NCBI GenBank assembly: GCA_963565915.1
Contig: OY751493.1
Span: forward strand, 2,356,001-2,420,000
Direction of reading: 5' to 3'
Length of the DNA: 64,000 nucleotides
From: Entoloma clypeatum
Taxonomy: Eukaryota; Basidiomycota; Agaricomycetes; Agaricales; Entolomataceae
Shown here: one piece after another, positions 27,335-55,107 of the stretch
Layout of the letters: every line of letters begins with the position of its first letter
Position numbering within the stretch: the first letter of the stretch is position 1
Made by a program: the position numbers and the translations under genes
Notes under the pieces: model-generated
What the model was told of the DNA's origin: nothing
The model's input: only the letters and a program-made list of their open reading frames with translations
Databases searched by the model: none

Positions 27335-27336
27335 GT

Positions 27337-28065: not shown

Positions 28066-28112
28066 CTTGACTCGTCTGGTAGTTGCTCTCTTCGCTCTGG
28101 GCGAACCTAACG

Positions 28113-28123
28113 AGATTTAGCAA
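28113..28123 (-). promoter_or_regulatory. Self-priming primer-binding site of E
   Basis: Two bases inside the 5' LTR the element reads TTGCTAAATCT. This is the exact complement of AGATTTAGCAA within the LTR (28209-28199), which lies 34 nt downstream of TATATAAA (28243-28236). A Tf1-like fold of the RNA 5' end onto this site would prime reverse transcription. Confidence 0.75.
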
Positions 28124-28125
28124 CT

Positions 28126-28495
28126 TGTTATGCGTAACAAACCGTTCCAAGGTTCGGGCAGAGTATGCAGGAAGATGGAAAGGCGAAGAGCAATGTGATT
28201 GCTAAATCTAAGGAATGTAGCTATGGTACATGAGGTTTATATAGTACTGACTATGAGCGGTAGCGAATGAGTCAGTAACTGCGGAAGGCAGTGCGCATGA
28301 GTAAGGCGACTGCGGAAGGCTATGCACTAATGAGTAAGCTGACTGTGGAATGAGTCAGACAGCTGCGGAAAGCGAGTCAGCGCGGGAGCGAAGTATACTA
28401 AAGGAAATAAAGTATAATACGATATGTGTAAGCGGGGGCCGATGAGTAAAAATGAAAAGGTAAGCGTATACGTCCGTAGTCGTTAGTCCGTAACA
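28126..28495 (-). repeat. 5' LTR of E
   Basis: 370 bp. It holds the TATA box (28243-28236) and the presumed transcript start AGATTTAGCAA (28209-28199). Confidence 0.93.
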
Positions 28496-28937: not shown

Positions 28938-29659
28938 TGTTATATCCGTCTCCGAATCTCCGATCCACTCCGATCGTCCTCCGACTTTCCGGACTTTCCG
29001 GACATCCGTTACCTCCACATCTCCGCACGTTGCCATCGTGCATTTCATATTCATAACTCCATGCCTTTATGCATTTCATATTCATATTCCCGTTTACTTA
29101 TGCATCGCCTTTTCCGCATGGTCCGTTGACCGACATCTCCGATGTTCGTTACAGTCGCTGGCAACTTACACCACAACTCTGGACCTACTCCGACCATCTC
29201 CGTAAAGTAATCTCATTTAGATATTTAAGCTTGTACCATACCTGTAGTTCCTCAGTTCGAATATCAACAAAGTTCACTCCTCTACTCCCCGTTCATGCCA
29301 GAGATCCTCGCTGTGGTACAATACGCCGACGACATCCTCATCTACTGCTCTTCCTCCATCGTTACCCTTCGACGAGCTCAGTACTGTGTCCGAGTCACAA
29401 CTCCGACGTCGTCCGACCATTTCCACGTCAACGTGTCTCTCACCGAGATCTTTCCGAGGACCTCCGCATCTCCGACCTCTCCTCCGACCTCCTGAAATTG
29501 GGACACCTTATCCAACAAACGGCGGCGCAACACATACGTTGAAGCCACGTCCCTCCCCTTCGTCGTTCCTCCGCATTCCCGGAGTTCCGCTCCGGCCTCA
29601 GTCCTTCGTCCGACCTCCAACGGACTCCGACGAAGCTCCGACTTTTCACCTACTTAACA
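28938..29659 (+). repeat. 5' LTR of B
   Basis: TGTTATATCC..CTTAACA. TATTTAAG at 29222-29229 is followed 32 nt later by the presumed transcript start AGTTCGAATAT (29254-29264). Frames across the LTR, including one reading VVQYADDILIYC, are discussed in the findings. Confidence 0.92.
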
Positions 29660-29661
29660 GT

Positions 29662-29672
29662 ATATTCGAACT
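29662..29672 (+). promoter_or_regulatory. Self-priming primer-binding site of B
   Basis: ATATTCGAACT, two bases after the 5' LTR, is the exact 11-nt complement of AGTTCGAATAT at 29254-29264 in the LTR, next to the expected transcript start. Confidence 0.75.
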
Positions 29673-29699
29673 CAAACCGTTTTTGGATTCCTGCTAGTC

Positions 29700-30857
29700 A
29701 TGGCACTCCGAAACACCAAGACAGCAAAAGCCGCAGAAGCTGGCACTTCTAGGCAACAGGTTCTACAAAATGTCGAACAACGTTTAACAGAACTATCCCC
29801 CGTAACTCCCACTACTCCGACACCTCCGGGTTTTCAGCCCATCACACCTCCGCATAATATTCCGATCCCCACTTCCCCCATAGAATCCGCACCCCCGTCT
29901 CCTCAGAATATTTTCGGCCCACAAGCCCTTGCGGATGCTTTCCTCTTAATGACCAATGAACTCAAACGCAGCAAAGGTCACAAGCATCATAAAAAGGCTA
30001 AGGATCCGGACACCTTCGACGGTTCCGATCCCCGGAAACTGAACCAGTTCATCCTCCAATGCACATTGTTCTTCCGCGACAACTCCGAGTATGACGATGA
30101 CTCTGCCAAAATCACTCTCGCCATCTCTTTCCTCCGAGGCACAGCTCTCGATTATTTCGAGCATTTCATCATCGAACTGGACCCGGATAACCCCCCGGAC
30201 TGGTACGAAGATTGGTCCGCATTCCTCCGCACACTCCGCACGGAATTCGGGGTCATTGACCCCGTTGCGGATGCTGCTGACTCTCTGGACAATCTCAAAA
30301 TGCGCGAAAATCAACATATTCTCAAGTATAATATCGAGTTCACACGCCTTGCTGCCAAAACGCACTGGGACAGCTCCGCCCTGCATCACCGGTACTACTC
30401 CGGGTTGGCGGAGCGGATTAAAGATGTCCTTGGGACTCAAGCAAAGCCAAGCACGTTACCAGCACTTAGGGAGCTAGCACAGACTATTGATGCTCGCCAC
30501 TGGGAACGTCATCGCGAGAAGTCCCGCTCCGACAAGTCCGCATCCAAATCCGACAAATCCGAAGCTAAAACCCCCTCCGCAAACTCTGATAAAAACTCCA
30601 AAGCCAAACCACAGACACAGAACCAGGGCAAACAGTCGAAGCCTTCCTCCGCTCCCAAGTCCGACATCTCCGACAAACTCGGAAAAGACGGAAAGCTAAC
30701 TCCGGAGGAACGCAAACGCCGTTTTGACAACAACCTCTGTATGTTTTGTGGCAAAGCTGGACACATCGCGAAAGATTGCCTGAAGTCTTCGTCCTCCGCC
30801 TCTAAGGCTAAGGCGCGCGCTGCCCAAGCCAAGACCACGGACGAAACAAAAAATTAG
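29700..30857 (+). CDS. Gag of element B
   Basis: 385 residues from the first ATG after the LTR to TAG at 30855-30857. Pro/Thr-rich N-terminus, then the retrotransposon gag core (KAKDPDTFDGSDPRKLNQFI, RGTALDYFEHFI, FGVIDPVADAADSLDNLKM), a Lys/Ser-rich linker, and one zinc knuckle CMFCGKAGHIAKDC (CX2CX4HX4C) near residue 355. It forms the particle shell and binds RNA. It overlaps the pol frame at the slippery site. Confidence 0.9.
   Translation: MALRNTKTAKAAEAGTSRQQVLQNVEQRLTELSPVTPTTPTPPGFQPITPPHNIPIPTSPIESAPPSPQNIFGPQALADAFLLMTNELKRSKGHKHHKKAKDPDTFDGSDPRKLNQFILQCTLFFRDNSEYDDDSAKITLAISFLRGTALDYFEHFIIELDPDNPPDWYEDWSAFLRTLRTEFGVIDPVADAADSLDNLKMRENQHILKYNIEFTRLAAKTHWDSSALHHRYYSGLAERIKDVLGTQAKPSTLPALRELAQTIDARHWERHREKSRSDKSASKSDKSEAKTPSANSDKNSKAKPQTQNQGKQSKPSSAPKSDISDKLGKDGKLTPEERKRRFDNNLCMFCGKAGHIAKDCLKSSSSASKAKARAAQAKTTDETKN
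30848..30854 (+). promoter_or_regulatory. Probable -1 ribosomal frameshift site A AAA AAT in B
   Basis: The heptamer fits X XXY YYZ in the gag frame and lies directly before the gag stop TAG. After a -1 slip the reading continues TTA GCG GGC into the open pol frame without a break. GC-rich sequence with short inverted words follows. No stem was computed. Confidence 0.7.
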
Positions 30858-33800
30858 CGGGCAGTCCACAGGACTCTGTACGGCCTGAGGACTGCGTTGA
30901 ACCCATCCGTAATACCGCTCTACTCAACGCTTCCGCTCTTTCCGATCCCAATTCCCTCCGTGTCCGACTTACATCTCCGCTTATCTCCGATTCTTCTCCG
31001 ATAGCCGCCCTTGTGGACTCCGGCTCTACTCATTGTTTTATTGACTCCCGTTATGCTTCATCCTATAAACTCCCTTTCACCTCCATACCTCCGATCGAAC
31101 TTAAATTATTTGACGGAACGTCCAACTCCATCATTACTCAGGCGGTTGATCTCCCTGTATACTTTTCCTCCGGTGAATATATGGCCATTACAGCCTACGT
31201 GACTCCGCTCGATTCCTCCTGTTCTATGGTTCTTGGATACAACTGGCTCACCCGCTACAATCCTATGATTGACTGGGTATTGGGCAGTATTACTTTCCGT
31301 CCACAGCTCTTGAAGGAGTCTCCGACCTTGACGTCTTCTGCCAGGTCAGCTCCGCTACCTCCGCAGACCTCTCCCGATACTCCGACCTCCGACTCCGGCA
31401 CACCCGCTGCTACTCCGGACGTTGTTCCGAATATTGCATTGATAAATGCAGCCGCATTTGTGCGCGCCTGCAAACTTCCGGGTGCCCAATCCTTCCGAAT
31501 TCACCTCTCCGACCACACGATCTCCGCCCAATCCGTTTCTATGTCCGAGGAACCTCCGGACCTCTCCCATATCCCAGAGGAATATCACGATTTTGCCGAT
31601 GTTTTTAGCAAGACAAAAGCAGACACCCTCGCTCCGCATCGTCCGTATGACCTCCGCATCGAGTTAGAAGACGGATCGACTCCCCCTATTGGCCCTATGT
31701 ACTCCATTTCACAATCCGAACTATCTGCCCAGCGAAACTTCATAGACGAACATTTGGCCATTGGCTTCATTCGCCCCTCTCGCTCTCCGCATGGCGCTCC
31801 GGTCCTCTTTGTCCGAAAGAAGGACGGTTCCCTCCGCCTGTGCGTCGACTATCGGGGCCTGAACAAAGTTACCAAGAAGGATCGATACCCTCTTCCGCTC
31901 ATCTCCGACCTCCTTTCCACTGCCGGAAAAGCGCGTGTTTATACCACTCTCGATCTCCGGCATGCATATCATCTTGTCCGCATTGCCGACGGAGATGAAT
32001 GGAAAACCGCTTTCCGCACTCGTTACGGATCGTTTGAATGGCTTGTTATGCCTTTTGGACTATCCAACGCCCCTGCTGCTTTTCAGCGATTTGTGAATGA
32101 CATCTTCAGTGACCTCCTCGATGTTACAGTGGTGGTCTACCTTGACGACATTCTCATTTACTCCGACGACCCCGCCAAGCACCCCGACGATGTCAAGGAA
32201 GTTCTCCGACGTCTCCGCAAGAACGGACTTTACGTCCGCTCCGACAAGTGCGAATTTTCTGTCGACACAGTCGAATATCTTGGTTTCATCCTTTCTCCCT
32301 CCGGTCTCCGCATGTCCGAAACCAAGGTGAAGACCATTCAAGAGTGGCCTGAACCTCGGAAAGTGAAGGACGTACAGTCTTTCCTAGGATTCGCAAATTT
32401 CTATCGACGTTTCATCCACGGTTATTCGGACATCGTTGTTCCGCTCACCCGACTCACCCGGAAGGGTACTCCGTTCCGTTTCTCCGACTCCGCACGGAGT
32501 GCGTTCAACGAGTTGAAGCTCGCGTTTACCAAAGCACCGGTCCTCACTCATTGGATTCCTGATCGACCTATTATCATCGAGACGGACGCCTCCGACTACG
32601 CACTTGGTGCTATTTTGTCCATCCGGACCTCCGACGAGGAGATACACCCAGTAGCGTTCCACTCCCGCACCTTCACCGCCCCGGAACTCAACTACGACAC
32701 GCACGACAAGGAGTTACTTGCTATCCATGAAGCATTCAAGGTATGGCGACATTACCTTGAAGGCTCCGCTGCTCCGATCGACGTTGTCACGGACCACAAG
32801 AACCTGGAGTATTTCGCCACTACAAAGGTTCTCACCCGCCGACAGGCCCGGTGGTCCGAGTTCCTCTCTCAGTTCAATCTCTTGATTCGCTTCCGCCCCG
32901 GACGTCTCGGTACCAAGCCGGACTCTTTGACTAGACGATGGGACGTCTATCCCAAAGAGGGGAATAGCGACTATGCATTGGTAAACCCAAGCAACTTCCG
33001 ACCAGTCTTTTCCCAAGAACAGCTGTCCGCATCTCTCCGAGCTACGGAGTTGTTCACCCCTGTTCTCCGCGCCACAGTCATAATGGACATTGAACAGTTG
33101 CACTCCAACATCCTCCGTTCACTCCCATCCGACCCAATCTATGCCGACCATCTCAAGGAGCCCAAACCGCACTGGTCCGTAGACTCCGACGGTTTCCTCC
33201 GTCATAGTGGTCGCATTTATGTCCCCGACTCCGATAACCTCCGGCTCCGCACCCTCCGCAACAAGCACGACCATATTCTCTCCGGACACCCCGGACAGAA
33301 CAAGACAGTTAGTCTCATTCAACGAGATTATACTTGGCCTGGTGTTCGAGACTTTGTCAAAAAGTACTGCAAATCCTGCACCACTTGCATGCGCTCTAAA
33401 CCCCAACGCCACAAGCCCTATGGTATGCTGAAGCAACTCCCAGTTCCGAACCTTCCGTGGAACTCCATATCCATGGACTTCATCGAGACACTTCCGACCT
33501 CCGGCGGTTTTGACGCAATCCTTGTTATTGTTGACCGAATGACAAAACAAAGCATTTTTGTTCCGACTACGATCCACTGCACCTCCGAAGATCTAGCCAC
33601 CTTGTTCATCCTGCATGTGTTCTCCAAGCACGGAGTACCGGAGCATGTCACCTCCGACCGAGGCCCGGAGTTCGTCTCCCGCTTTTTCCGCTCCCTCGGA
33701 AAAGCCCTCAACATGACTCTGCACTTCACCTCTGGCTACCATCCTGAAGGCGACGGTCAAACCGAACGTACCAACCAGACCTTGGAACAGTACCTCCGCA

Positions 33801-33999
33801 TTTTCTGTAACTATCAACAGGACAACTGGTCCGAACTACTTCCGCTTGCGGAGTTCGCGTACAACAATGCTCCGAGTGCTACGACCGGGATCTCGCCCTT
33901 CTTTGCCAATAAAGGTTATCATCCGAACCTCTCCGTCCATCCGGAGCGCGACCTCGCATCCGCCCGTGCCCGACAATTCGTCGTAGACCTGGACGAGCT
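30854..33999 (+). pseudogene. Pol of element B, part 1 (protease, RT, RNase H, integrase), cut by element C
   Basis: Open from the frameshift site to the insertion of C. Protease LVDSGSTHCF at 31010; RT with VRKKDGSLRLCVDYRGLNK and the catalytic VVYLDDILIYS at about 32130-32165. RNase H ETDASDYALGAILS and TDHKNLEYF; integrase zinc finger HPGQNKT..CKSCTTCMRSK. DDE residues lie in SMDFIETL, TSDRGPEFVSRF and DGQTERTNQT. The run reads into the C LTR (SSAYHSHPHVI) and stops at 34039. Removing C and one AGCT joins GAG CT with T CAC in frame (DELHQELKS), so B was intact before C arrived. Confidence 0.92.
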
Positions 34000-34163
34000 T
34001 GTAAGCTCCGCTTACCATTCACATCCCCACGTGATCTAAGAAGTCCGATATATATACTCATCGCACATATCTGTAGTTTCTAGTTTTCTCTCCCCATACA
34101 ACAACCTTGTTTCTTCAGCTGTCCGAACCCTCCTGAGTGGACCGACCGAGGTCAGGTCTTCAC
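34000..34163 (+). repeat. 5' LTR of C
   Basis: TGTAAGCTCC..GGTCTTCAC, 164 bp; TATATATA at 34049-34056. The end base is uncertain by one or two because the LTR does not close in a clean CA. Confidence 0.88.
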
Positions 34164-34166
34164 TTT

Positions 34167-34177
34167 TGAAGAAACAA
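34167..34177 (+). promoter_or_regulatory. Self-priming primer-binding site of C
   Basis: TGAAGAAACAA just after the LTR is the exact 11-nt complement of TTGTTTCTTCA at 34107-34117 in the LTR. Here the distance to the TATA box is about 58 nt, longer than in the other elements. Confidence 0.65.
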
Positions 34178-34793
34178 TCGTTGCCCTCGGGCTAAATATC
34201 TTGGACCCTGAACATCCCGGACCCTGAACGTGAACATCCCAGACCCTGAACATTCCCCCCCCCCCCTCCCTGGCGGCTCTCCCACGCTGGACTCCCCTCT
34301 CGATCCCCTGACGCCCTCGACAGACTCGTCGGACTCGATTGCCACACACTTCCATAACGGCACCGACAGACCCAGCCTTCTAGCACGATTACAAGGTGCT
34401 ATTGACTCATCTCTCTCTCTCTCTTCCTTGTCCTCAACGTCCCTGCCCCAGTCCCCCCTCAATTTGCCTGTCCTCTCTCCCTCCCCACGACCGCATATAG
34501 CCACCCCAGAACCTAGTTCCTCAAAGCCCGACACCAAACGACCGCATATAGCCACACCCCCAAAGTCCGACCCGCTTTTCCAAATATCCTCGGAATCATC
34601 GTTGTTCTCCCGACTCTTTGACACCTCCGCGCACTCACGGACCCCCCTTGTTTCACCACAGTCCCTCCCTGTCCTGCCCCTGGTTTCCCCCACGCCGACC
34701 CCCCTCCTGTTCCCTCCCAGCCTTATTCCCGACGACTCCGACTCAGACTCTGACTCGAGCTCCGAGTACTTGTTCTCCGGCCATCATAGCACA

Positions 34794-37700
34794 ATGTATT
34801 CATACTCTGGCCTCGCCATGCCCACTGTTCCCGCCTCTGCAGAACCATTGGCTCGCCTCCTGAATGAAGGCACCATTGGCAAACCACCCATGGTCTCCGA
34901 CGGGAAGCTCACCCTACCCGTGACGCAGGCTTTCGAAATCGCCGCGGCACGTTATTTTAACCACAAAGCAATCCTCCCAGCCAACCAGGTCCGCCAAGTC
35001 CTTCTAAATTTTTCTACACCTTCGATCTACTCTTGGGCATCCACAAACCAAGACACCCTCGCCGCACTATCTTTCCCGCAATTCATGACAGAACTCAAGA
35101 AGAGATGGCTCCCTGTTGACTGGGAGGACGAGATTGTTGCCCGGGTCATCAACCACCAGAACCCCAACCACTCCTTCTGGGAATGGAGCAATGATTTCTG
35201 TGCTGCGAATGCTCTGATGTCTCACCGCCCTGCCATCCACGTTGCCGCCGACAACATCCGTGAATATTTAATTATACGTATGATCCCAACGCTGCGAACT
35301 GCATACCGCCAGAACAACTCCGTCGGCATTCTGCAAAATGCATCCCCAGGCATGAATCCAGATGGGACTCCACGCGCAGCGACCCTGCCTACCGGCCTTC
35401 TCGACAGCATCCCATCCTTCGAGGCCTGGCAACTCCACGTCCGGCTGATTGACGAGAAGCTGCGTGCAGAGCGCTCCGTAATGTTCTCCGCCATTGCCTC
35501 CCACGTCATGCAACATACCCCTCCCACCCCCACCACCAACGCCAATGTTTTCCCCTTGCCTCCCCGTCCCAATATTCCCCCACCCCCCCGGCCCACGACT
35601 ACGGCCACCACATCAAACTACAGCAATCGTATCTCACGCCCCAACGACGCCATCGGTATGGAACCCCTCACAGACGACCAACGCAACCTCCTCCGACAGT
35701 TTGGTGGTTGCTTCTCCTGCCGAGAATTCTACACATCCCACGTGGCTGCCCAGTGCCCCTACCGCCGCCCAACAGTTGAAGCCGTCGCAAACTGTAACCA
35801 GGCGGGTGCTGTGGCTGCCGCCACGGCCAAACGCGCTCCCGATAACAACCCCACGATCGTCGCCTCCGTCTCGGTCTCCCCAGCACCTATTGAGTCTACA
35901 CCCACCGTTATTGCAGCGGTGATGACCCCCCCTCGCCGCACTCCTCTCCTTCCGGCCCCTGCCCCCCCAGTCACCCCTCACCTCCCTCCCCCTCCTGTCC
36001 ATGTCCCGTTCTCCAATAACTTTTACCCTGAGCTTAACTCCTCATCTCCGCCCCATGCCAGATCAATCCCTGTTTCTGCCATCTTCGACAACCAGCCCAT
36101 GGCCAGCGGGGACAACTCCTCATCCTCTGAAGATGACGCGATCTCCATCGACTATAACGAAGGCTTTGCCTCAGATGAGTATGTATCTTCTCCCCTCACT
36201 TCTCTTCCTTCCCCCAATGCCCCCACTCCCCTCTCCAATTCCTTCTCCCTCCCCGAACACATCTGGTGGCCCTGTGCCATCGATGCCCCTGCCACCTGTG
36301 CCCCGACACATATTCGTGCTCTTATTGACACCGGTTGCCCACCAGTCCTGATTTCTGAAGAAACCGTTGACGTCTTCGCCCTCACCCGCCATCGCGCATA
36401 CAAAAGCTTTGAAATCTCGGGCGCTTACAGTGGGGATGAGGACGCCTGTCGGGTCACACATTATGTTAAACTGCACTTACAATCGACAGACGCCTTATGG
36501 ACCTCACACGTACTACATGCCTTCATAGTCCCTAACCTTCATGCAGATATTATTCTTGGCCTCAGCTTCATTAAGCAAAATAGAATTGTCATTGACGTCG
36601 AATGCAACACTGCGAAATGCAAGGATGACGGTTACGACCTCTTGAACCCCCCAGACCTCAAGAATGTGCGGAGGAACCCTCCCCTGTCCCCACCACTACG
36701 CCGCAAACTCGAGAGGAAATTGATCCTAGAGGGCCGTCTTGCCTTCAGACTACGCCACAAATCCGTCCTTGGAGAGCTCGGTGAACTTTTCGCGAAGAAC
36801 CCCAAGCGCTTCGACTTCTCTGCACATACGATTGGGGACGTCAACATCGTCGCTCTAATCAGATCCCGTGTCGAACAACTCGCTCTCGCCGACAGTCTTT
36901 CCGGATTGGATGCGAAATTCAAGAAACTTTTCTCCGACTGCTTCCCCTCCGACATTCCCCATGTCGACCTGCTACCCGACGATGTCCATCATCGCATTGA
37001 AATCAAGCCCGGCTCCACCTTTGCCACTTCCCGTCCGTACTCCTGCCCCCGCAAATATCGCGATGCTTGGAGGATGCTCATCAACCAGCACATCGCAGCA
37101 GGACGAATCCGACCCTCCTCCTCCCCTTATGCTTCCCCTTCCTTCATCATCCCCAAGGCTGATCCTGAGGTCCTTCCCCGATGGGTGGTAGACTATCGTT
37201 TACTCAACAAAGTCACAGTTCCTGATGCCTTCCCCCTGCCTCGTATCGACGATATCCTTGCAGACTGTGCCAAGGGAAAGATCTGGGGAACGATAGACAT
37301 GACTAATTCATTTTTCCAGACCCGCGTCCACCCCGACCATGTCAAGTATACCGCAACATTAACGCCGTTTGGCCTTTGGGAATGGACCGTCATGCCCATG
37401 GGCTGCCGCAATGCCCCCGCCACCCACCAACGGCGAGTGTCACTGGCCCTCAAGGACCACATTGGCAAGATCTGCCACGTGTACCTGGACGACATTGTCA
37501 TCTGGTCCAAAGACCTCCCAGAGCATGAGGCCAACATCTCCACCATCCTTAAAGCACTGCGCCAGGCTCACCTGTTCTGTTCCTTGAAGAAGTCCAAACT
37601 ATTTTGCCACGAAATTGATTTCCTAGGTCACCATATCTCAAGCCGCGGGATCGAGGCCGACAAATCTAAAATCCAGAAAATTCTCGACTGGCCGCGCCCA

Positions 37701-39863
37701 AGGAACGCCAAGGAGGTTCGTCGCTTCCTGGGCCTCGTCCGCTACATCGCTGCATTCCTACCCCGCCTCGCTGAACATACTGCGATCCTGACCCCTCTCA
37801 CCAAGAAAGACTGTAACAATGTCTTTCCCAACTGGACAAAATCGCACCAGCATGCCTTCGATTGCATCAAATCACTTGTCACTTCCTGTGATTGCCTCAC
37901 CTCCATCGATCACGTCAACCCAGGCGACAACTTGATCTTCCTCACCTGTGATGCCAGCAAACGACGCATAGGGAGTGTCCTCTCATTCGGCCCCTCGTGG
38001 AAGTCTGCCCGGCCTGTGGCTTTCGAAAGCCGAGCCCTTCGCGATGCGGAGAAACACTACCCGGTACACGAACTCGAGCTGTTATCCATTATCCACGCCC
38101 TCCGTAAATGGCGGTCTGATTTGCTAGGCTCACACATCCACATCTACACCGACCACAAAACCCTTCAAAACTTCGAAACACAACGCGACCTGTCCATGCG
38201 CCAGGCGCGATGGATGGAATATATATCCCAATACGACCACTCCATTACATACATAAACGGAGAAGCCAACAGCGTTGCGGACGCAATGTCACGCTTTCCT
38301 GATAGAGGCGACCCTGCGCAAAGTCCTTGCCCCACACCGGACTCCCCCACCTCCGTCGCTGCCATATTCCGTATCTCCTCCGACGATTCCTTCACATCAG
38401 ACATTCGCACTGGATACGCAAACGATGGCTGGTGTTCAAAGCTAATCAACGACCTCAAGGGTAATAGTGTTGATGTCAAGTTTGGCCTGAAAGTGAAAGA
38501 CGGCCTACTGTTTGTTGGCAACCGCCTCGTCATACCAAACATCAAAAGCCTTCGGGAAGGGATTTTCCGCCTTGCACATGACAACCTCGGCCATTTCGGT
38601 GGTGACAAGACCTACGAGGCCCTTCGACACGAGTTCTACTGGCCCAACATGCGCCGCGACCTACTCAATGCCTATGTCCCATCATGTTCTCAATGCCAAC
38701 GTAATAAGTCACGCACCTCCAAACCCCCTGGTCCCTTACATCCGCTCGCTATCCCGGATGGCCGCTTCAAATCGATCGCCATGGACTTTATCGGCCCGTT
38801 ACCTTCCGACAATGGTTTGGACTGCCTCCTCACGATTACTGACAGACTTGGTGCCGACATCCAACTTGTCCCTTGCCGAACCGACACATCTGCGGAGGAA
38901 CTGGCTGACCTTTTTTTCGACCATTGGTATTGCGAAAATGGATGCCCCGAGGAAATGATTACGGACCGCGATAAGCTCTTCATGTCGAAATTCTGGAGAA
39001 GCCTAATGACTCTCACAGGGATTAAGCACAAAGTTTCAACCTCTTACCATCCTCAAACAGACGGCGCTTCCGAACGAACGAACAAGACCGTTATCCAAAG
39101 CATCCGTTTCCTTGTCGATCGCGATCAAGTGGGCTGGGTTAAGGCACTGCCAAGGGTTCGTTTCAGCATTATGAACACTGTAAACTCATCAACAGGCTAT
39201 GCACCATTCATGTTGAAATCGGGCCACCACCCCCGCCTCATTCCACCGCTGGTACGGGGTGCACCCAGTTCGGCCACGGATGATCCAGCTCCCGCAACTA
39301 CCTTCATCCGACGACTCTCGAGTGACATTGCAGAGGCTCAGGACAGGCTGCTGGCCGCGAAGTTAAATCAGGCACACAACGCAAACCTCTCACGCGGGCC
39401 GGACCCTCATTTCCACATTGGCGACAAAGTCCTTTTATCCACAGAACATAGACGACGGGACTACATACAAGCAGGAGATGGACGCGCAGCGAAGTTCATG
39501 CCTCGTTACGATGGCCCCTACCGCATAACACACGCATTCCCCGACTCCTCAATGTATGGACTTAGCATGTCAAGCGCATCGAGGGTACACCCGAAGTTCC
39601 ACGTCTCCCTACTGAAGCCATACATAGAAAATAACCCCGAGCTGTTCCCGAGTCGCGTCCGACATCCGCCCGCCCCGATCGTAACTGAGGATGGCCAGGT
39701 GGAATGTTTCATCGAGAGGATCATTGATGAACGTGGAAAAGGAAAAAGGCGACAGTACAAAGTCCGGTGGCTTGGCTACGGCGAAGACGATGACGAATGG
39801 CTGCCAAAATCTCAGCTTGAAGATGCGGCCGCACTCGATTGCTGGGAATCTCGGAATGGATAG
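34794..39863 (+). CDS. Gag-Pol polyprotein of element C
   Basis: A single frame of 1,689 residues from the first in-frame ATG. It is open a further 188 codons upstream to 34230 (Pro/Ser-rich, no ATG), so an upstream non-AUG start is possible. Gag contains a variant zinc knuckle CFSCREFYTSHVAAQC (CX2CX6HX4C). Protease LIDTGCPPVLI (36322); RT with VVDYRLLNKV and CHVYLDDIVIWS (about 37470-37505). RNase H TCDASKRRIGSVLS and TDHKTLQNF; integrase zinc finger HFGGDKT..CSQCQRNK. DDE residues in AMDFIGPL, TDRDKLFMSKF and GASERTNKT. The chromodomain FIERIIDERGKGKRRQYKVR / WLGYGEDDDEWLP (about 39705-39830) presumably steers integration to marked chromatin. No stop or shift is seen. Confidence 0.93.
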   Translation: MYSYSGLAMPTVPASAEPLARLLNEGTIGKPPMVSDGKLTLPVTQAFEIAAARYFNHKAILPANQVRQVLLNFSTPSIYSWASTNQDTLAALSFPQFMTELKKRWLPVDWEDEIVARVINHQNPNHSFWEWSNDFCAANALMSHRPAIHVAADNIREYLIIRMIPTLRTAYRQNNSVGILQNASPGMNPDGTPRAATLPTGLLDSIPSFEAWQLHVRLIDEKLRAERSVMFSAIASHVMQHTPPTPTTNANVFPLPPRPNIPPPPRPTTTATTSNYSNRISRPNDAIGMEPLTDDQRNLLRQFGGCFSCREFYTSHVAAQCPYRRPTVEAVANCNQAGAVAAATAKRAPDNNPTIVASVSVSPAPIESTPTVIAAVMTPPRRTPLLPAPAPPVTPHLPPPPVHVPFSNNFYPELNSSSPPHARSIPVSAIFDNQPMASGDNSSSSEDDAISIDYNEGFASDEYVSSPLTSLPSPNAPTPLSNSFSLPEHIWWPCAIDAPATCAPTHIRALIDTGCPPVLISEETVDVFALTRHRAYKSFEISGAYSGDEDACRVTHYVKLHLQSTDALWTSHVLHAFIVPNLHADIILGLSFIKQNRIVIDVECNTAKCKDDGYDLLNPPDLKNVRRNPPLSPPLRRKLERKLILEGRLAFRLRHKSVLGELGELFAKNPKRFDFSAHTIGDVNIVALIRSRVEQLALADSLSGLDAKFKKLFSDCFPSDIPHVDLLPDDVHHRIEIKPGSTFATSRPYSCPRKYRDAWRMLINQHIAAGRIRPSSSPYASPSFIIPKADPEVLPRWVVDYRLLNKVTVPDAFPLPRIDDILADCAKGKIWGTIDMTNSFFQTRVHPDHVKYTATLTPFGLWEWTVMPMGCRNAPATHQRRVSLALKDHIGKICHVYLDDIVIWSKDLPEHEANISTILKALRQAHLFCSLKKSKLFCHEIDFLGHHISSRGIEADKSKIQKILDWPRPRNAKEVRRFLGLVRYIAAFLPRLAEHTAILTPLTKKDCNNVFPNWTKSHQHAFDCIKSLVTSCDCLTSIDHVNPGDNLIFLTCDASKRRIGSVLSFGPSWKSARPVAFESRALRDAEKHYPVHELELLSIIHALRKWRSDLLGSHIHIYTDHKTLQNFETQRDLSMRQARWMEYISQYDHSITYINGEANSVADAMSRFPDRGDPAQSPCPTPDSPTSVAAIFRISSDDSFTSDIRTGYANDGWCSKLINDLKGNSVDVKFGLKVKDGLLFVGNRLVIPNIKSLREGIFRLAHDNLGHFGGDKTYEALRHEFYWPNMRRDLLNAYVPSCSQCQRNKSRTSKPPGPLHPLAIPDGRFKSIAMDFIGPLPSDNGLDCLLTITDRLGADIQLVPCRTDTSAEELADLFFDHWYCENGCPEEMITDRDKLFMSKFWRSLMTLTGIKHKVSTSYHPQTDGASERTNKTVIQSIRFLVDRDQVGWVKALPRVRFSIMNTVNSSTGYAPFMLKSGHHPRLIPPLVRGAPSSATDDPAPATTFIRRLSSDIAEAQDRLLAAKLNQAHNANLSRGPDPHFHIGDKVLLSTEHRRRDYIQAGDGRAAKFMPRYDGPYRITHAFPDSSMYGLSMSSASRVHPKFHVSLLKPYIENNPELFPSRVRHPPAPIVTEDGQVECFIERIIDERGKGKRRQYKVRWLGYGEDDDEWLPKSQLEDAAALDCWESRNG

Positions 39864-39908
39864 AAGCTTTCGAAAACGGGTGGTTCAATTTTTCAGAGGT
39901 TGGGAGAG

Positions 39909-40072
39909 TGTAAGCTCCGCTTACCATTCACATCCCCACGTGATCTAAGAAGTCCGATATATATACTCATCGCACATATCTGTAGTTTCTAGTTTTCTCT
40001 CCCCATACAACAACCTTGTTTCTTCAGCTGTCCGAACCCTCCTGAGTGGACCGACCGAGGTCAGGTCTTCAC
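39909..40072 (+). repeat. 3' LTR of C
   Basis: 164 bp, matching the 5' LTR base for base as far as I can read. Confidence 0.88.
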
Positions 40073-40076
40073 AGCT

Positions 40077-40629
40077 TCACCAAGAACTCAAATCTACAAT
40101 CCTAGAAGCTCAACGACGTTATCAAGGCCCCGCCGATCTCCGGCGTGCTCCGCCCCCTCCGCTCGAAGTAGGACAGCAAGCTTTTGTGAAGGCTAAGTTT
40201 TTCCGCACTACACGACCCTCCGTAAGGCTGTCTGAAAAGTACCTTGGCCCCTTTGACATCCTTGCCAGGAATGGTACACACTCTTACACCCTCCGACTTC
40301 CGGACACCATACGCGGTGTTCACCCCGTTTTCCACATCTCCATGCTGGAGCCATCTGTTCTGAACGACATTCCGAACCGGACAGTAACTCCGCCTCCTCC
40401 GGTCGACGTTGAAGGAGAAGTGGAATACGAAATCGCCGAAATCCTTGACACCAAACTGGATCGTCGGCGTTCTTGCAAACTGCTCTACCTAGTCCGTTGG
40501 CTAGGCTATGAAGGAACCGATGAGGAACAGTCCTGGCTACCCGCCACGGAACTCGAACACGCGACGGACTTAGTCGCGGACTTCCACTCCGCGTATCCGG
40601 AGAAACCGGGCCCCTTATCACACCTATAG
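40077..40629 (+). pseudogene. Pol of element B, part 2 (integrase C-terminus and chromodomain)
   Basis: Continues the frame interrupted at 33999: HQELKSTILEAQRRYQG, then the integrase C-terminal GPFDILARNGTHSYTLRLP and GVHPVFHISMLEP. The chromodomain EYEIAEILDTKLDRRR, LVRWLGYEGTDEEQSWLP follows, ending in TAG at 40627-40629. Frame and residues agree with the uninterrupted family. Confidence 0.92.
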
Positions 40630-40699
40630 AAGCACGCAAGACTCTCATATTGCAAAAAAATAATAAAAAATAATGAAAAGAAACTAGAGGGGGGAGGGG

Positions 40700-41651
40700 C
40701 TACTGGGTTTTGGCCTTTTTGGCCGGCGGACCCTCATTCTCCGACCCTTCCTCCGACTCCTCCGTTTTTTCCCCTGTTTCTTCCTCCGCTTTCCTCGCCT
40801 GCTTTTTCTCCTCCTCCATTTTCTCCGCTTGCAGTTCCGCAAGCTCCCCCTCGTCCAACCCCTCATCCTCTTCCTCGTCCTCTTCCACACTTTTTGCCTC
40901 CCCTCCGTCATCCTCCGACTCCGGAGCCGCCGCCTCCAGCAAGAAGTTCCGGTAGGCGAGGTGGTTGTTTAAAATTTGCAGCTGCCGGAGCAGCGCCCAA
41001 CCGACCCTCGCCGACCGCTCCTCTCTCTCCTCCAGAGCCTCCCGGAGCTCCCGGAGCTCCTCCGCGACCCCTGCGCCGCAGCAGTTCTTTGCCCCGCTCG
41101 GGCCCGCGACCTCCGCGACGGCCTCCTCCGTCTTCCCCCGTTTACGCTTCGCCCTCGTCTCGCCGGTTTTCAGGCAAACCCGTTTGCCGTCTTTACACCG
41201 CTGGCATGCGGTGCCTTTCCCCTGCCTAAGGAGACTGTCAGTAAGAAAAAGAAGATGAAAAAAAAAAAGCGGGTACTCACAATGGCCACTTGCACTCCAC
41301 CTTCGCCTGCGCACAGGCCTGACACGCCTCCCCCCGGACCTCCGATTCCTCCGCTCCGCTCTCCACCCTCTGTTTCCCCGCCTTCTTCGCCCTCTTCCTC
41401 TCCGCCTCCGCCTCCGCCTTCGCCTCCGCCTCTGCCTTCTTCTTCGCCTCTGCCTCCCTCGCCCTCCTCTCGGCCTCGGCCTTCTTCCTTGCCTCCGCCT
41501 CCTCCTTTTCCTTGCGTATCTGCGCCAGACAGCGCAGGAGCTCCTCTTCGGAGTCGTCTAGGTTGGCGCTGGATCGGGGGGGCTGTGTGCTCGAGCCTTG
41601 GGGCATGTTGGTGGTAACTGGAAGAAACCCTTGAAAGCCGCTCACCTCCAT
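40700..41651 (-). CDS. Antisense Zn(II)2Cys6-type gene carried by element B
   Basis: Two exons on the strand opposite to gag and pol, 41651-41281 and 41225-40700, joined by a 55-bp GTGAGT..CTTAG intron, give 298 residues. Exon 1 has an acidic start, a long Ala/Glu/Lys/Arg helix and CQACAQAKVEC. Exon 2 begins QGKGTA then CQRCKDGKRVC. Together CX2CX6C-X10-CX2CX6C matches the fungal Zn(II)2Cys6 binuclear cluster, and the intron splits the cluster between its halves. After it come KRKRGKTEE, a leucine-rich coil (ELRELREALEEREE), acidic stretches and a basic tail (PPAKKAKTQ). A nuclear DNA-binding role is inferred from the cluster. The ATG is 75 bp from the 3' LTR, which may supply the promoter. 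MPQGSS (41606) is an alternative start. Confidence 0.7.
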
Positions 41652-41726
41652 TAAATAACCGAGACCACATGACCTTGTTTATTTTCTCGCGGTCTTCCAT
41701 GGGTGTCAGACCTAAGAGGGGAATAC

Positions 41727-42448
41727 TGTTATATCCGTCTCCGAATCTCCGATCCACTCCGATCGTCCTCCGACTTTCCGGACTTTCCGGACATCCGTTA
41801 CCTCCACATCTCCGCACGTTGCCATCGTGCATTTCATATTCATAACTCCATGCCTTTATGCATTTCATATTCATATTCCCGTTTACTTATGCATCGCCTT
41901 TTCCGCATGGTCCGTTGACCGACATCTCCGATGTTCGTTACAGTCGCTGGCAACTTACACCACAACTCCGGACCTACTCCGACCATCTCCGTAAAGTAAT
42001 CTCATTTAGATATTTAAGCTTGTACCATACCTGTAGTTCCTCAGTTCGAATATCAACAAAGTTCACTCCTCTACTCCCCGTTCATGCCAGAGATCCTCGC
42101 TGTGGTACAATACGCCGACGACATCCTCATCTACTGCTCTTCCTCCATCGTTACCCTTCGACGAGCTCAGTACTGTGTCCGAGTCACAACTCCGACGTCG
42201 TCCGACCATTTCCACGTCAACGTGTCTCTCACCGAGATCTTTCCGAGGACCTCCGCATCTCCGACCTCTCCTCCGACCTCCTGAAATTGGGACACCTTAT
42301 CCAACAAACGGCGGCGCAACACATACGTTGAAGCCACGCCCCTCCCCTTCGTCGTTCCTCCGCATTCCCGGAGTTCCGCTCCAGCCTCAGTCCTTCGTCC
42401 GACCTCCAACGGACTCCGACGAAGCTCCGACTTTTCACCTACTTAACA
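41727..42448 (+). repeat. 3' LTR of B
   Basis: 722 bp; differs from the 5' LTR at three positions that I can see (C/T at 41970 and 42339, A/G at 42383). Confidence 0.92.
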
Positions 42449-42453
42449 CTCGA

Positions 42454-42855
42454 ACTCAGATACTTGCAAGGGAGATCCAAAGTTTAGATTGAGCAGTCTG
42501 ATAAGTAATACAACACACACCTTGCAAGGAAGATCCAAAGAGAAAGTTCTAAGGATTCCCCTGCAAGCTAGTGAGATAAATAGTAAAATGAGATATGAAA
42601 CAAGAGATAAAACGAGACACATGAATGATGAGCAATGATCGGGAGTAGCGATGAAGGATGAATGGAAACAAGATGAATGATAGTACCTGCGATCCAATGT
42701 GCGGAGTAGTGGATGGGGGCGGAGTCGTCAGATGTGGAGAGGTGGATAAGATGTCGGAGACAGCGGATACGATTGGAGGACGTCAGAGATGGTGGAATAG
42801 AAAGGAAAGGAAGAAAGGAAAGGAAAAGTGAAAAGTGAAAGTGGTTGGCCTTACA
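42454..42855 (-). repeat. Remainder of the 3' LTR of A (first 31 bp at 28907-28937)
   Basis: Ends GGCCTTACA. It contains the inverse of TTAGAACTTTCTC and a TATTTAT TATA element. The rebuilt LTR would be about 433 bp, 58 shorter than the 5' LTR because one copy of a GATCC..CTTGCAAGG unit is missing. Confidence 0.8.
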
Positions 42856-42881
42856 TCACCCCCCCTTCAAGGCACGGCGTC

Positions 42882-45502
42882 TCAACGTGTCAGGCGAAAC
42901 GAGTCGAATATCGCAGCGGCGATCCACCGTGGAGCTCCCGGATGATGTCGGTAGAAGTCACAGACTAGGCGCGGAGTGTGGACATTGTCTTCTGCTTCCC
43001 AGGAATTCTCTTCATAGCCATATCCCTTCCATTTGACCAATAATTGAAGCTTGCCTCGATGCAGTCGGCTGTCCAAGAGGTTTTCAACATCATACTCTAA
43101 TTCTTCTCTGACTGCCGTCGGAGGCGGAGGAGAGCGGACTTGGCATTGGAAGGGGTCGTCGGGAACTAGTGAAAGTTTGATGACATGGAATACTGGGTGA
43201 ACGCGGGACATGGAAGGGGGAAGGCAAAGTTTGTAGGCATGTGTTCCGACAGGTCGGACCACTGGGAAAGGGCCTACATATCGATGTGCAAGCTTTTTTG
43301 TGGGTCGGGTGGTTTTGAGGTCTGATGAGTCTAAAAAGACCTTGTCCCCCGGGTGGAATGTCGGAGTGGTGCTCCGATGCTGGTTGTAGTATCGCGCCAT
43401 GTCGTCTTTTGCCTTTGTCAGTGCTGCGTGAGCCTCCTCTAGAGCGGACTTCATCCACTGGCTGAAATCCACTACTGCCTCGATCTCCGTCCGCTTCTCG
43501 CGAGGTTCAAATCCCATGCGCGGATGGCGGCCAGTGTCAATGTAGAATGGAGTTTGACGTGTCGATGCGTGAACATGGTTGTTGTATGCAAATTCAGCCA
43601 TCGGAAGCCATTCGTCCCAATCGTCTTGACGTTCATTGATGAATAGGCGAAGGTATTGTTCCAATCCTTGATTGACCTGCTCTGTCTGTCCGTCCAACTG
43701 CGGATGGTATGCTGTCGAGGCAGCAACCTTCATGTTAAGCAGCCTGTATAGTTCGCGTGTGAACTTGGCGACAAACTGTGGTCCTCGGTCAGAGACAATG
43801 GCCTCCAGTAGTCCGTGGAGTTTCCAGACATTTTGAACATAGGAGCGTGCAGTCCCGAGTGCGGAGATGTCGGAGTGCGTCGGGATGAAGTGTCCCCGCT
43901 TCCCTACTGAGTCCACTATGACCATGATAGCGTCGTAGCTGTGGGCTTCTGGTAGTTCAGTAATGAAGTCAACACTGGTTACTTGCCATCGCTCCGTGGG
44001 GACCGGTAGCGGATTGAGCTCTCCGGAGGGCGGAGTGCGTCGGACCTTGGTGCGGAGGCAAGGGTCGCATGTCTTGCAATATTGACCTATTAAACGAGAC
44101 ATGTGTGGCCACCAGTAATTGCGCGACACCAGTTCCAAGGTTTTCCACCATCCAGGATGTCCGGCCACCGGAGTGTCATGGTGTTGTGTGAGGATCCAAT
44201 GATGCAGTTGGGGATTGTTAGGAACATAGATATGATCCCTGAAGTAGAGCAAACCTTCCGCTTGCCTCCACTCCGCACTACGGAGACTGACCCCGCTCTG
44301 ACGGTCGGAAGGGATTTGACAACCTCCGCCACACTATCCTGCAGTAACCCCTCTCGGATTCCCTGTCAGACCTGGCAGAGGACATTGTGTTCTTCCCCTT
44401 GAACAGTTACCCCCCGCATTTCTCGCACTGCAAACAATTCTGGTCAAAGAAGGATGATGTTTTCGTTGTCCCGCGATCCGTCTCCATGGTCCGCTCATCG
44501 GGACAAAGCATTGGACTTGCCCATTGACTTGCCAGGTCGATGGTGCATTTTGAAATTGAAACAAGCGAGGTATAAGGACCATCTAGCCTGTCGTTGATTT
44601 AGTTTTTGAGCTGTCATGAAATACTCAAGATTTTTGTGGTCCGTCCAAATCTCCACTGTCTTCTCCGCTCCTTCAAGGAAGTGCCTCCACTCCTCCAATG
44701 CACGGACCAATGCCAACATCTCCTTGTCATAGATCTCGTAGTTGCGTTCCACTGGACTAAGGCTTTTGGAATAGAATGCGACAGGGTGCCACTTACCGTC
44801 CTCTGTTGGTTGGGACAGTACTGCTCCGGTTGCAAAGTCCGAGCTATCCGCTTATATCCGCCACTCCTTTCCATGATCAGCTAAGACCAGGATCGGAGCG
44901 GATGTAATCCTCCGCTTCAACTCCGCAAATGCGGACACTTCTCTCTCCCTCCAAGACCAGAGGTGCCCTTTCTTCGTGAGCTCGAAAAGAGGGCGCGCGA
45001 TGTCCAAAAACCCTTCAATAAAACGGCGATAGAAGTTAGTGAATCCCAGAAAGGACTGTACTTCTTGGACGTTTGTCGGAGCAGGCCACTCTGCGACCCC
45101 CGCTACCTTCACCGGATCCATCTCTACGTGTCCTTGTTCAATAATAAGGCCTAGGTATTCAATGCACGTTTGTTCAAACTCGCATTTCTCTGGTTTTAGA
45201 TAGAGTTTGTGTCCGTGAAGTTGTTCCAGTATGATCCGTGTGACTCTCCAATGCTCCGCAAGGGTCTCCGTGAAGATGAGTATATCATTGAGGTAAACAC
45301 AGACTACACCTTCAGTGATAAGGTCCTGAAAGATCTCGTTCATCATAGTCTGGAATGTGGATGGACTATTAGTGAGGCCGAAGAACATCACCAATGGTTC
45401 ATAGAGTCTGTGATTGGTCCGAAAAGCGGCCTTCCACTCGTCTCTGGGTTTTATCTGCACATTGTTGTAGCCCCAGAGGATGTCGAGCTTGGTGAAGTAT
45501 TG
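42882..45502 (-). pseudogene. Pol of element A, part 2 (RT to chromodomain), degenerate
   Basis: Minus strand from the D insertion: YFTKLDILWGYNN, then QIKPRDEWKAAFRTNH and the RT active site CVYLNDILIF (Asn replaces the first Asp). RNase H follows, with a TAA at 44854-44852 where the family has Glu ([17 protein letters not shown]), and TDHKNLEYF. Shifts between 44495 and 44252 separate this from the integrase: LDSVGKR-type core, SDRGPQFVAKF, DGQTEQVNQG. The chromodomain LLVKWKGYGYEENSWE precedes the stop at 42882. The last 456 codons are free of stops. It is clearly non-functional because of the changed RT site, stop and shifts. Confidence 0.85.
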
Positions 45503-45703
45503 TGTATAGCAAGCTTCCAGGCTAGCCGGAGATTCCGTAGTATACCTTACATAATGTCACAGTCACATTCCTTACATATATAGAGACACGAGGTGCCAGC
45601 AACACATATACCTTTGGCTCTTATCTTCCGTGCAGTTCAGAGGGTTTCGTGGTCTCCTCTTTCCTCTTCGTGCTTGCAGCCTTCAGGTTGCTACGTCCAT
45701 ATA
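45503..45703 (+). repeat. 5' LTR of D
   Basis: 201 bp. A TATATA run at 45577-45582 is the likely core promoter. Differs from the 3' LTR at about four positions (2%). Confidence 0.85.
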
Positions 45704-45705
45704 TC

Positions 45706-45721
45706 TGGAGCCCACCACGAG
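45706..45721 (+). promoter_or_regulatory. tRNA-type primer-binding site of D
   Basis: TGGAGCCCACCACGAG begins two bases after the LTR. A TGG start pairs with the CCA tail of a tRNA. No 10-11 nt match to the LTR exists, unlike A, B, C, E and F. The tRNA was not identified. Confidence 0.55.
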
Positions 45722-45851
45722 AGGAAAAAGGTCACCTTTGCTGTTTCTGTCATCTGACCAAATTTTTTTCTGCTGACCTGTCGACGCTGCCAAAATTGCT
45801 TTTGCCGTGCCGAAGCTGTTAACATCTGACAAGAAGAAGAAAGACTGGACC

Positions 45852-51700: not shown

Positions 51701-52281
51701 AGCGAGTGGGACATCCACATACCACACATCTTCTGGGCGGACCGAGTGACAGTACGACGCACCCTTGGGACATCCCCTTATCAGGCAGCAACAGGCGCGG
51801 AACCGCACCTACCATTCGATATCACGGAGGCGATGTTCCTATTCCCCGAATTCAAATCCAAACTCACCGACGCTGAACTGATCGCGAACTGAGCCATTCA
51901 GCTGGAGCGCCGTGATGACGAACTCGCCAAAATTCATGACCGTGTCGTCCGCGCGCGTTTTCATCCATTGCCCAGTTTGAGAAAACCCACGCAAATATGA
52001 TCCACAACTACAACTTCGCAGCAGGGGAGCTTGTCATGGTTCTTAAGAAGAAGATTGAGAAGAGTACCAGCAGGAAGTGTCGCCCTCGCTATTTCGGACC
52101 CATGCTCGTCGTCAAACGCCTATGCTCAGGAGCCTATCGCCTCGCAGAGATCAATGGCGCACTTTCGAGGCTCAAGTTCGCTGCCTTCCGCCTTTGTCCA
52201 TACCACGCGCGCTCATCAAGATTCGTCGATGTTACTCAGTATGTGGATGCACAGGACCTTGGAGGGATAGAAGATGATTGA
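48726..52281 (+). pseudogene. Pol region of element D (RT, RNase H, integrase), broken
   Basis: Same frame as gag to about 49447, where one T is missing (family-like reading KLIKARIDAGTYEPSSSSYR continues one frame over). RT: VGKPKDETGTDTIRIVHNLG, IYTGIDLKSGYDHH, MPLGTHRLTVLPQGW, catalytic SFSDDITVLGP (49865-49876 encode FSDD). RNase H: VYLSIDSSVRACGFILGQ. TGA at 50789-50791, then the integrase: zinc finger H..H..CHPCQTR, HVDNMHLP, VTDNGSVWIAAVEWL, SNGSVENAHRMI. TGA at 51890-51892 (LIAN-R-AIQLE expected), a second one-base loss near 51965, and a C-terminus ending at 52281. I see no chromodomain. Confidence 0.82.
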
Positions 52282-52351
52282 AATTAGAAGGAAGAGGGGT
52301 TCGAAGAGAGAAGATCAACTGAGACGCTCGATATTTCAAGTGTGGGGGAGA

Positions 52352-52552
52352 TGTATAGCGAGCTTCCAGGCTAGCTGGAGATTCCGTAGTATACCTTACA
52401 TAATGTCACAGTCACATTCCTTACATATATAGAGACACGAGGTGCCAGCAACACATATACCTTTGGCTCTTATGTTCCGTGCAGTTCAGAGGGTTTCGTG
52501 GTCTCCTCTTTCCTCTTCGTGCTTGCAGCCTTCAGGTTGCTACGTCCATACA
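52352..52552 (+). repeat. 3' LTR of D
   Basis: 201 bp, TGTATAGCG..CCATACA. A GTGTGGGGGAGA polypurine tract stands directly before it. Confidence 0.85.
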
Positions 52553-52556
52553 ATTG

Positions 52557-55105: not shown

Positions 55106-55107
55106 AT

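Follow-up and report, generated by a model that had tools for sequence, protein, structure and literature searches.

A Ty3/Gypsy chromodomain LTR retrotransposon family, here called B, carries between pol and the 3′ LTR, on the opposite strand, a gene with one predicted intron whose product contains a Zn(II)2Cys6-like cysteine cluster. The antisense frame is real and not a chance ORF, purifying selection acts on it in B and in a sister family, and the gene is a long-lived accessory gene of this LTR retrotransposon lineage. On balance, we lean towards the reading that it is a self-encoded, self-acting DNA-binding regulator of the element, for which the structure and conservation of the gene, the selection on it, the location of every fetched B-type locus within an element, the same design in the sister family and the excess, spacing and conservation of a candidate target word, CTCCG(A), form the basis. 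Retroelements with antisense genes have been described before, among plant Gypsy elements and human retroviruses; the present gene contains an intron, evolves under selection in both of two diverged families and resembles a DNA-binding regulator in shape. Moreover, the candidate word is denser than codon usage explains, which makes the role of an antisense gene testable by means of one protein and one motif.

Structure of element B and its antisense gene

The copy of B described here lies in the window, by which we mean the whole 64-kb stretch of DNA that was analysed, and a nested element interrupts it. The features are listed below with the evidence for them in brackets.

28938..42448, plus strand: element B, a Ty3/Gypsy chromodomain LTR retrotransposon (LTR pair and Pfam domains)
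28938..29659, plus strand: 5′ LTR of B, 722 nt, 99.58% identical to the 3′ LTR
29658..30857, plus strand: gag frame of B, running from stop to stop (matches to a zinc knuckle and to DUF4939 fall below the Pfam cut-off)
30812..33994, plus strand: pol of B, portion 5′ of the nested insertion (ORFs, Pfam)
about 33995-40072, plus strand: nested chromodomain element D with 169-nt LTRs, interrupting B pol; it served as motif control
40073..40629, plus strand: pol C-terminus of B with SH3_Tf2-1 and chromodomain, 3′ of the nested insertion (Pfam)
40700..41225, minus strand: exon 2 of the antisense gene, with the second half of the Cys cluster, a basic stretch, a coil (LRQLQILNNHLAYRNF), an acidic region, the basic end PPAKKAKTQ and the stop (gene model, copies)
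41226..41280, minus strand: predicted intron, 55 nt, phase 2, GTGAGT...ACTGACAGTCTCCTTAG, four codons past Cys 3 of the cluster
41281..41606, minus strand: exon 1 of the antisense gene, with the N-terminus, a Lys/Glu-rich coil and the first half of the Cys cluster (gene model, copies)
41607..41726, minus strand: spacer 5′ of the antisense gene, with the TATA-like TTATTTAA and the polypurine tract AAGAGGGGAA
41727..42448, plus strand: 3′ LTR of B, 722 nt, 99.58% identical to the 5′ LTR

Element B has Pfam matches to RVT_1, RNase H, Integrase_H2C2, rve, SH3_Tf2-1 and Chromo, and its PR, RT, RNase H and integrase in Gypsy order, together with the chromodomain and the LTRs, place it in the Ty3/Gypsy chromodomain class. 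The window copy is flanked by the 5-mers CTCAA and CTCGA. Since exact 5-bp target duplications are present in 16 of 17 other full copies (those with both LTRs), and since the LTR pairs of 17 B copies with both LTRs are 98.9–100% identical, family B has moved recently.

The antisense gene is arranged tail to tail with B pol, the stop of pol ending at 40629 and that of the gene at 40700, and its 5′ end points towards the 3′ LTR, which starts at 41727. The predicted protein has 283 aa from an ATG at 41606 on the minus strand, and its cluster, C-X2-C-X6-C-X10-C-X2-C-X6-C, is interrupted by the intron. The initial annotation, which had described two exons on the opposite strand encoding this cluster with coil, acidic and basic regions, is borne out by the gene model, and the intron interval that it gave is exact; the gene also lies in its span of 40700..41651, the right end of which is 45 nt beyond the predicted ATG. 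Element D, in which no antisense gene was seen, does not belong to this system.

The start codon is a prediction, with the context ACCAACATGCC in 45/45 copies. A further in-frame ATG upstream, with no stop between, is present at varying places in 33 of the 45 (10 close copies have it 39–45 nt away, and 23 diverged ones mostly at 63 and 93 nt), so that the N-terminus of the protein may be longer than modelled, which counts against the reading as a regulator. The TATA-like TTATTTAA is found 51–52 nt upstream of the antisense ATG of B in 43/45 copies, and the polypurine tract AAGAGGGGAA near the LTR likewise in 43/45.

Conservation of the gene among copies of B

The genome that was searched comprises 60 Mb in 20 contigs, which, together with introns of 50 nt and the Gypsy chromodomain elements, points to a fungus. 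The search for the antisense gene yielded 40 copies scored by DNA and at least 152 exon-wise protein matches, with identities down to 47%. Two sets of copies were examined: a close set consisting of the window copy and the 20 best further copies (n = 21), and a diverged set of 24 copies hand-picked from the protein matches, mostly for being near full-length. The predicted spliced frame is intact in 21/21 close copies, which encode 277–287 aa; their coding lengths differ by multiples of three, and the T-run of the intron varies freely, giving introns of 51–63 nt. Twelve of the 24 diverged copies pass the end filter with a proper intron, one (L032) is intact but fails this filter with its end KTAKTQ, and 11 are broken or doubtful, the last being a further point against a regulator. 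L032 was omitted from the 13 diverged copies of the dN/dS test though its frame is intact. For L052, the best fit contains a 105-nt 'intron' spanning a stop; it was kept in the 91-pair dN/dS test and dropped from the disjoint-pair and splice-signal tests.

The donor GTGAGT, the word CTGAC and the acceptor TTAG occur in 33/33 copies, 21 close and 12 diverged, the latter chosen for an intact frame. The introns of these 33 intact copies are 46–63 nt long, a length that is not a multiple of three in 28 of them, and no intron loss was seen in the intact copies examined. Because the gene is coded antisense, the sense genomic RNA cannot splice the intron out, and the intron survives each round of retrotransposition; the antisense placement is a simple account of how an intron persists in a retrotransposon.

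At each of the 44 B-type loci fetched, 20 of them close and 24 diverged, the gene is flanked by an LTR on one side and by pol on the other. Conversely, starting from pol, a match to the antisense gene lies 1.0–2.1 kb downstream on the opposite strand for at least 71 of 86 B pol matches and at least 30 of 40 pol matches of the sister family, and no match to the gene on the same strand was found downstream of pol among the matches listed for these 86 and 40. This pairing left out 3/129 pol matches (88–89% identity), and it scores the window copy and L053 as misses though both have the gene. The position between pol and the 3′ LTR and the antisense orientation, kept in most copies, are those by which antisense frames of the plant aORF-3R type are recognised.

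Purifying selection in B and in a sister family

For the B gene, the median dN/dS is 0.28 with a range of 0.19–0.68 (91 pairs). The permutation null keeps base and CpG context and was applied to 7 disjoint B pairs with 350 substitutions; both this test and the regional one use 14 of the 34 aligned B copies. The nonsynonymous share in the disjoint pairs is 0.529 against an expected 0.713 (z −8.2), and six of the seven pairs are also low when taken singly (7 or fewer of 300 permutations); the seventh, L039-L051, shows no constraint and thereby speaks against the regulatory reading. By region, pN/pS rises from 0.18 in the cluster, its lowest value, through 0.22 (first coil), 0.43 (acidic region) and 0.51 (second coil) to 0.99 (first 20 residues). 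The antisense gene has a pooled pN/pS of 0.31, versus 0.39 for the pol C-terminus. In the diverged copies, the DNA of the antisense gene is 75–89% identical, whereas the LTR and pol flanks are mostly 91–98% identical; this greater divergence of the gene is again unfavourable to a regulator, and it is due partly to changes in repeat length and partly, in all probability, to exchange of segments.

The pol matches in the genome fall mainly into two sets, B (about 90–100% identity) and a sister family (84–86%). In all 4 sister copies followed beyond pol, an antisense spliced gene model is present at the place equivalent to that in B, reading TCDRCIVKGVECERDE, intron, NKSSCKGCIKDKKKCEV and the end GPSNKKQRTK. 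Its intron splits a codon four residues past the third Cys in phase 2, which is the position and phase of the B intron. Ten further sister genes were taken as short stretches without flanks, of which L069 was dropped since no start was found and L064 had its N-terminus trimmed. The cluster is exact in 13/13 sister genes, with X8 as the middle spacing and introns of 48–53 nt, and purifying selection is evident here too (z −9.1, 6 disjoint pairs). The antisense proteins of B and the sister family align at the cluster only (hhalign E 0.013, probability 3.4%), another point against the regulatory reading, and the case for common descent of the two genes therefore draws on their location, orientation, cluster, intron and overall build. 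Two sister copies, L053 and L054, are mosaic relative to each other, exon 1 being nearly identical and exon 2 having a dS of 0.54, which points to exchange between subfamilies.

These data bear on the idea that low-complexity, CT-rich sequence merely yields long frames by chance. Several frames of the region are indeed open over about 100 aa or more, the coil and tail are of low complexity, and the sense frame that shares third codon positions with the gene has z values of −6.7 in B and −7.2 in the sister family, nearly as low as those of the gene; for B, this must follow from the shared positions. That sense frame is nevertheless stopped in both exons in 33/33 B copies, and in the sister family in exon 1 in 13/13 and in exon 2 in 9/13. 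Coding of the B gene region on the sense strand is rejected on the grounds of these stops. Furthermore, the splice signals are invariant, unlike the T-run of the intron, and selection is found within the cluster itself and in the sister gene. With intact copies, selection in both families, splice signals and stopped sense frames, we consider an artefact refuted and leave it only a vestige of probability.

Alternatively, the ORF might be incidental and the antisense transcript might itself be what matters, acting as a non-coding or double-stranded RNA in the silencing or tuning of the element. Antisense RNAs with such roles are discussed for retroelements in the accessible parts of PMC7264820; the frame-specific purifying selection in two families and the conservation of the start context, splice sites and six cysteines argue against such an RNA here, and we give it a small chance. 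The initial annotation had claimed an antisense, intron-containing gene on an LTR element, with an intron that survives reverse transcription and possibly a long life as an accessory gene. The copies agree on each count, with the frame intact in every close copy, the intron and its splice signals retained, every fetched B-type locus in an element and selection in two families; the frame is thus neither absent from other copies of B nor unconstrained there.

Nature of the predicted protein

The consensus of Zn(II)2Cys6 clusters is C-X2-C-X6-C-X5-12-C-X2-C-X6-C, and its cysteine spacing is found in 32/34 B copies (the exceptions are L033 and L052) and in 13/13 sister copies, all of them close or chosen as intact. 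The Pfam family PF00172 scores 8.6 and 13.2 bits on the cluster pieces against a cut-off of 21, and no PF00172 match is listed for the whole B and sister proteins; a weak match to ADD_DNMT3 is also below its cut-off. When a profile of the clusters of both families was compared with the PDB, five hits with E values of 0.15 to 4.5 were obtained, all individually insignificant. They are led by PPR1 and GAL4 (GAL4 twice), these three spanning the cluster, and they include Pho7 and C27B12.11c, which cover only 11 positions; all four proteins are Zn2Cys6 transcription factors. A single-sequence PDB search gave one match, to the coil, which is insignificant. Judging from its sequence, the protein appears to be Zn2Cys6-like and not a member of PF00172. 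The type assigned by the initial annotation, Zn(II)2Cys6, therefore stands as to cysteine spacing and lacks backing from PF00172, which stays below its cut-off in both families. That PPR1 and GAL4 lead the PDB hits favours a self-acting regulator; the insignificance of these hits and the PF00172 scores weigh against it.

The six-cysteine spacing, the coil after the cluster and the acidic region are shared with fungal Zn(II)2Cys6 factors such as PPR1 and GAL4. Unlike in these factors, the PF00172 cut-off is not reached and the B cluster lies in the middle of the protein. Many Zn(II)2Cys6 factors have a middle homology region, which Pfam scans of the B and sister proteins do not show.

In a large protein set, perhaps poor in fungal proteins, no relatives were found with the whole B protein (E 0.001), B residues 88-212 (E 0.01) or sister residues 96-225 (E 0.1); the whole-B search was limited to scoring the 7996 candidates with the most words in common. 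A scan of viral contigs with B pol gave no relative either. These searches bear on donation by the host, according to which a captured host transcription factor gene still acts on host genes. Zn2Cys6-like clusters are typical of fungal host regulators and the PDB profile hits point the same way. However, all 44 fetched B-type loci are in elements, the protein set, limited as it is, holds no relative, and the proteins of the two families align at the cluster only, so that any capture must be old. The suggestion of a captured host regulator made in the initial annotation is thus unsupported; an old capture from the host is possible, and a gene still serving the host has a slim chance.

A dispersed candidate target word

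CGG triplets in DNA are bound by Zn2Cys6 factors. The word CTCCG(A) on the sense strand contains, as its complement, a CGG triplet, and both families are saturated with it. Element B has 129 CTCCG versus 18 CGGAG in 7433 nt, whereas window positions 1-14000 have 26 of the two words with both strands summed, and the density drops within nested D. Against codon-preserving shuffles, CTCCG is the most over-represented 5-mer of B pol, with 54 observed versus about 21 (z 9–10), and it is also in excess in B gag (16 versus 7.0); the excess of the reverse word CGGAG in B pol is modest (8 versus 3.1). In the antisense gene of B, the sense strand has 19 CTCCG versus 11.4, and the opposite orientation 5 versus 0.8. 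For sister pol, the top 5-mer is TCCGA (55 versus 16), and CTCCG occurs 42 times versus 13. No CTCCG excess over the shuffles is found in D (16 versus 13.3) or in the gag of element E (0 versus 2.3). Enrichment of plain CCG/CGG triplets is weaker and less specific than that of the 5-mer (z 3.9 in the B LTR, 5.8 in B gag-pol, −2.7 in D), for which reason CTCCG with codon-preserving shuffles was adopted. A maximal-order Markov ranking of k-mers does not show the motif, we think because shorter background words are enriched too. The density of one motif in one orientation makes B comparable to elements with a VANC-type system.

The word is also non-randomly placed. Neighbouring CTCCG 8–11 nt apart number 28 versus 7.8 in B and 17 versus 5.7 in the sister family, the expected values coming from positions jittered by at most 60 nt. 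Of the B pol CTCCG sites, 25/52 are identical in the sister family, while the identity baseline at aligned places is 1276/5660 for other 5-mers (22.5%, both directions pooled) and 50/148 for other NNCCG. In both families, TCCG-type words form an array within the first 60–90 nt of the LTR, which places it immediately upstream of the antisense gene; the first 90-nt bin of the B 3′ LTR holds 9 of its 27 TCCG words and 5 of its 16 CTCCG. Across the genome, CTCCGA-N2-5-CTCCGA occurs 3954 times versus 41 for the reversed control, and the three such sites that were fetched are all in LTR elements.

In the 24 diverged copies, CpGs within CTCCG are changed less often than other CpGs in the LTR (49/219 versus 99/272) and in the antisense gene (124/394 versus 226/604), these cells not being independent. 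In the pol C-terminus, the changes are 36/116 within CTCCG, 101/293 in other CpGs and 88/296 in other CCG, which is not clearly lower for the word; that its CpGs are not better kept there counts against a self-acting regulator. CpG-type decay (TG/CA) is frequent in the old copies L029-L052.

The motif in elements without the gene

Family C is represented by L058 (1-6401), the one copy examined whole, the pol of which is 44% identical to B pol over 786 residues. Its pol has a motif excess on both strands (CTCCG 21 versus 9.6, CGGAG 24 versus 8.6), yet L058 has no antisense gene and no half-cluster in any frame. The motif is thus not confined to gene-bearing elements as in a VANC-type system, and it is not tied one to one to the gene. 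For family C, use of the protein in trans, loss of the gene and reading of the word by a host factor are all conceivable; the last speaks against the regulatory reading, since the motif may then serve a host factor. Family C (L058 and window 42445-55505) shows the CTCCG/CGGAG excess in gag and pol on both strands, and its end stretches (LTRs) have CTCCG without CGGAG. The motif-rich sites L059 and L060 proved to be the end of a C-like element and a further element whose LTR is rich in the motif. No paired cluster was seen in either; in L060, the half-cluster pattern matched three times, once in that LTR and twice between stops.

Another explanation grants that the gene is real and lets its protein do something else, such as assisting Gag, integration, nuclear import or binding other DNA, the CTCCG arrays being an older, unrelated feature recognised by a host factor or by proteins that bind the sense RNA. 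The family C copy with the motif and without the gene fits this, as does a motif that is strand-biased and lies within the coding sequence of both strands; one-strandedness in B, as would also be seen for an RNA signal, is equally a point against the regulator. On the other side, the best PDB profile matches of the cluster, at insignificant E values, are PPR1 and GAL4, factors of this kind recognise CGG triplets, the LTR-edge arrays lie just upstream of the antisense gene in both families, and a direct spacing near one helical turn suits a DNA-binding protein. We regard a different function with an unrelated motif as possible but rather doubtful.

Proposed role of the antisense gene

For the self-acting regulator that we favour, antisense transcription would most likely be driven by a promoter where the 3′ LTR borders the element interior, and the RNA, after removal of its one intron, would most likely encode a nuclear protein that combines a Zn2Cys6-like cluster with coiled coils, an acidic region and basic tails. 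The protein, binding zinc through its cluster, would recognise CGGAG/CTCCG words in the DNA, in the arrays at each LTR edge and scattered over the element body, would autoregulate its own promoter and would act on the LTRs or the chromatin of its family. As an outcome, LTR activity would be set or copies kept from silencing, whether by activation and anti-silencing or by repression.

A complete self-targeting system is a more tentative proposal, to which we give less credence than to the regulator itself: the zinc-cluster protein would bind CTCCG(A), and the word would have accumulated mostly in one orientation, at near helical-turn spacing, in the LTRs and on both coding strands. If true, a self-targeting regulatory or anti-silencing code would extend over an entire LTR element and be used in trans by the gene-less family C.

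Comparison with known systems

VANC, the anti-silencing protein of Arabidopsis VANDAL elements, is likewise coded by an element with a dense short motif. It differs in several respects: the motifs of VANDAL21 are mainly non-coding and often in tandem repeats, while those of B are in coding sequence too; binding is demonstrated for VANC21, while the B motif is a candidate target; and the gene-less family C carries the B-type motif as well. Pfam scans of the B and sister proteins list no VANC-type, bZIP or TRP28 domain.

According to the accessible parts of PMC7264820 and PMC11963269, antisense ORFs of plant Gypsy elements (Grande gene23, RIRE2, Retand/TRP28) lie between pol and the 3′ LTR in most copies and are suspected of a nuclear or DNA-binding role, their function being open. 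The B gene is like them in place, orientation and presence in most copies. They differ in that Grande, RIRE2 and Retand are found in plants, with Retand belonging to a non-chromovirus lineage, while the B gene has an intron, is zinc-cluster-like and resides in elements over which a motif is scattered. Neither paper uses the words 'intron' or 'zinc' in its main text, and PMC7264820 asks, in its accessible parts, for a look at antisense and spliced transcripts.

A second parallel is HBZ of HTLV-1, described in the accessible parts of PMC10186651 as an antisense, spliced gene expressed from the 3′ LTR whose product is a bZIP factor that downregulates viral expression; among the APH proteins of HTLV-2 to 4, APH-3 and APH-4 suppress 5′ LTR transcription (PMC10186651). 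An antisense spliced gene beside the 3′ LTR is also the layout of the B gene model. HBZ, unlike the B protein, is a retroviral bZIP protein, no sequence relation is claimed, and the promoter and effect of the B gene are predictions. By analogy, the antisense regulator of B is perhaps HBZ-like in layout and VANC-like in action.

Surveys of fungal LTR elements describe, in their accessible parts, a gag-pol-chromodomain design (PMC2864245, PMC3248453, PMC3411680), which B shares. The words 'antisense' and 'zinc' are absent from the main text of these three papers, and a figure legend in PMC2864245 names an additional ORF of unknown function. Among the open-licence papers matched by literature searches, no title or abstract beginning mentions an antisense zinc-cluster gene carried by a fungal LTR element. 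An antisense accessory gene is of a known kind; one that bears an intron, is zinc-cluster-like and belongs to a chromodomain element strewn with a candidate target word was not found among these papers.

Other repeats in the window

Elements are nested in the window across 28938-55505, with D within B pol and B within an LTR of element C; Gypsy element E (repeats at 45503 and 52352) is also nested in C. Related arrays with a 20-nt repeat unit are present at 21666-21963 and 58168-58605. Long inverted copies at 26586-28174 and 62711-64000 are 88–93% alike and look like parts of another repeated element.
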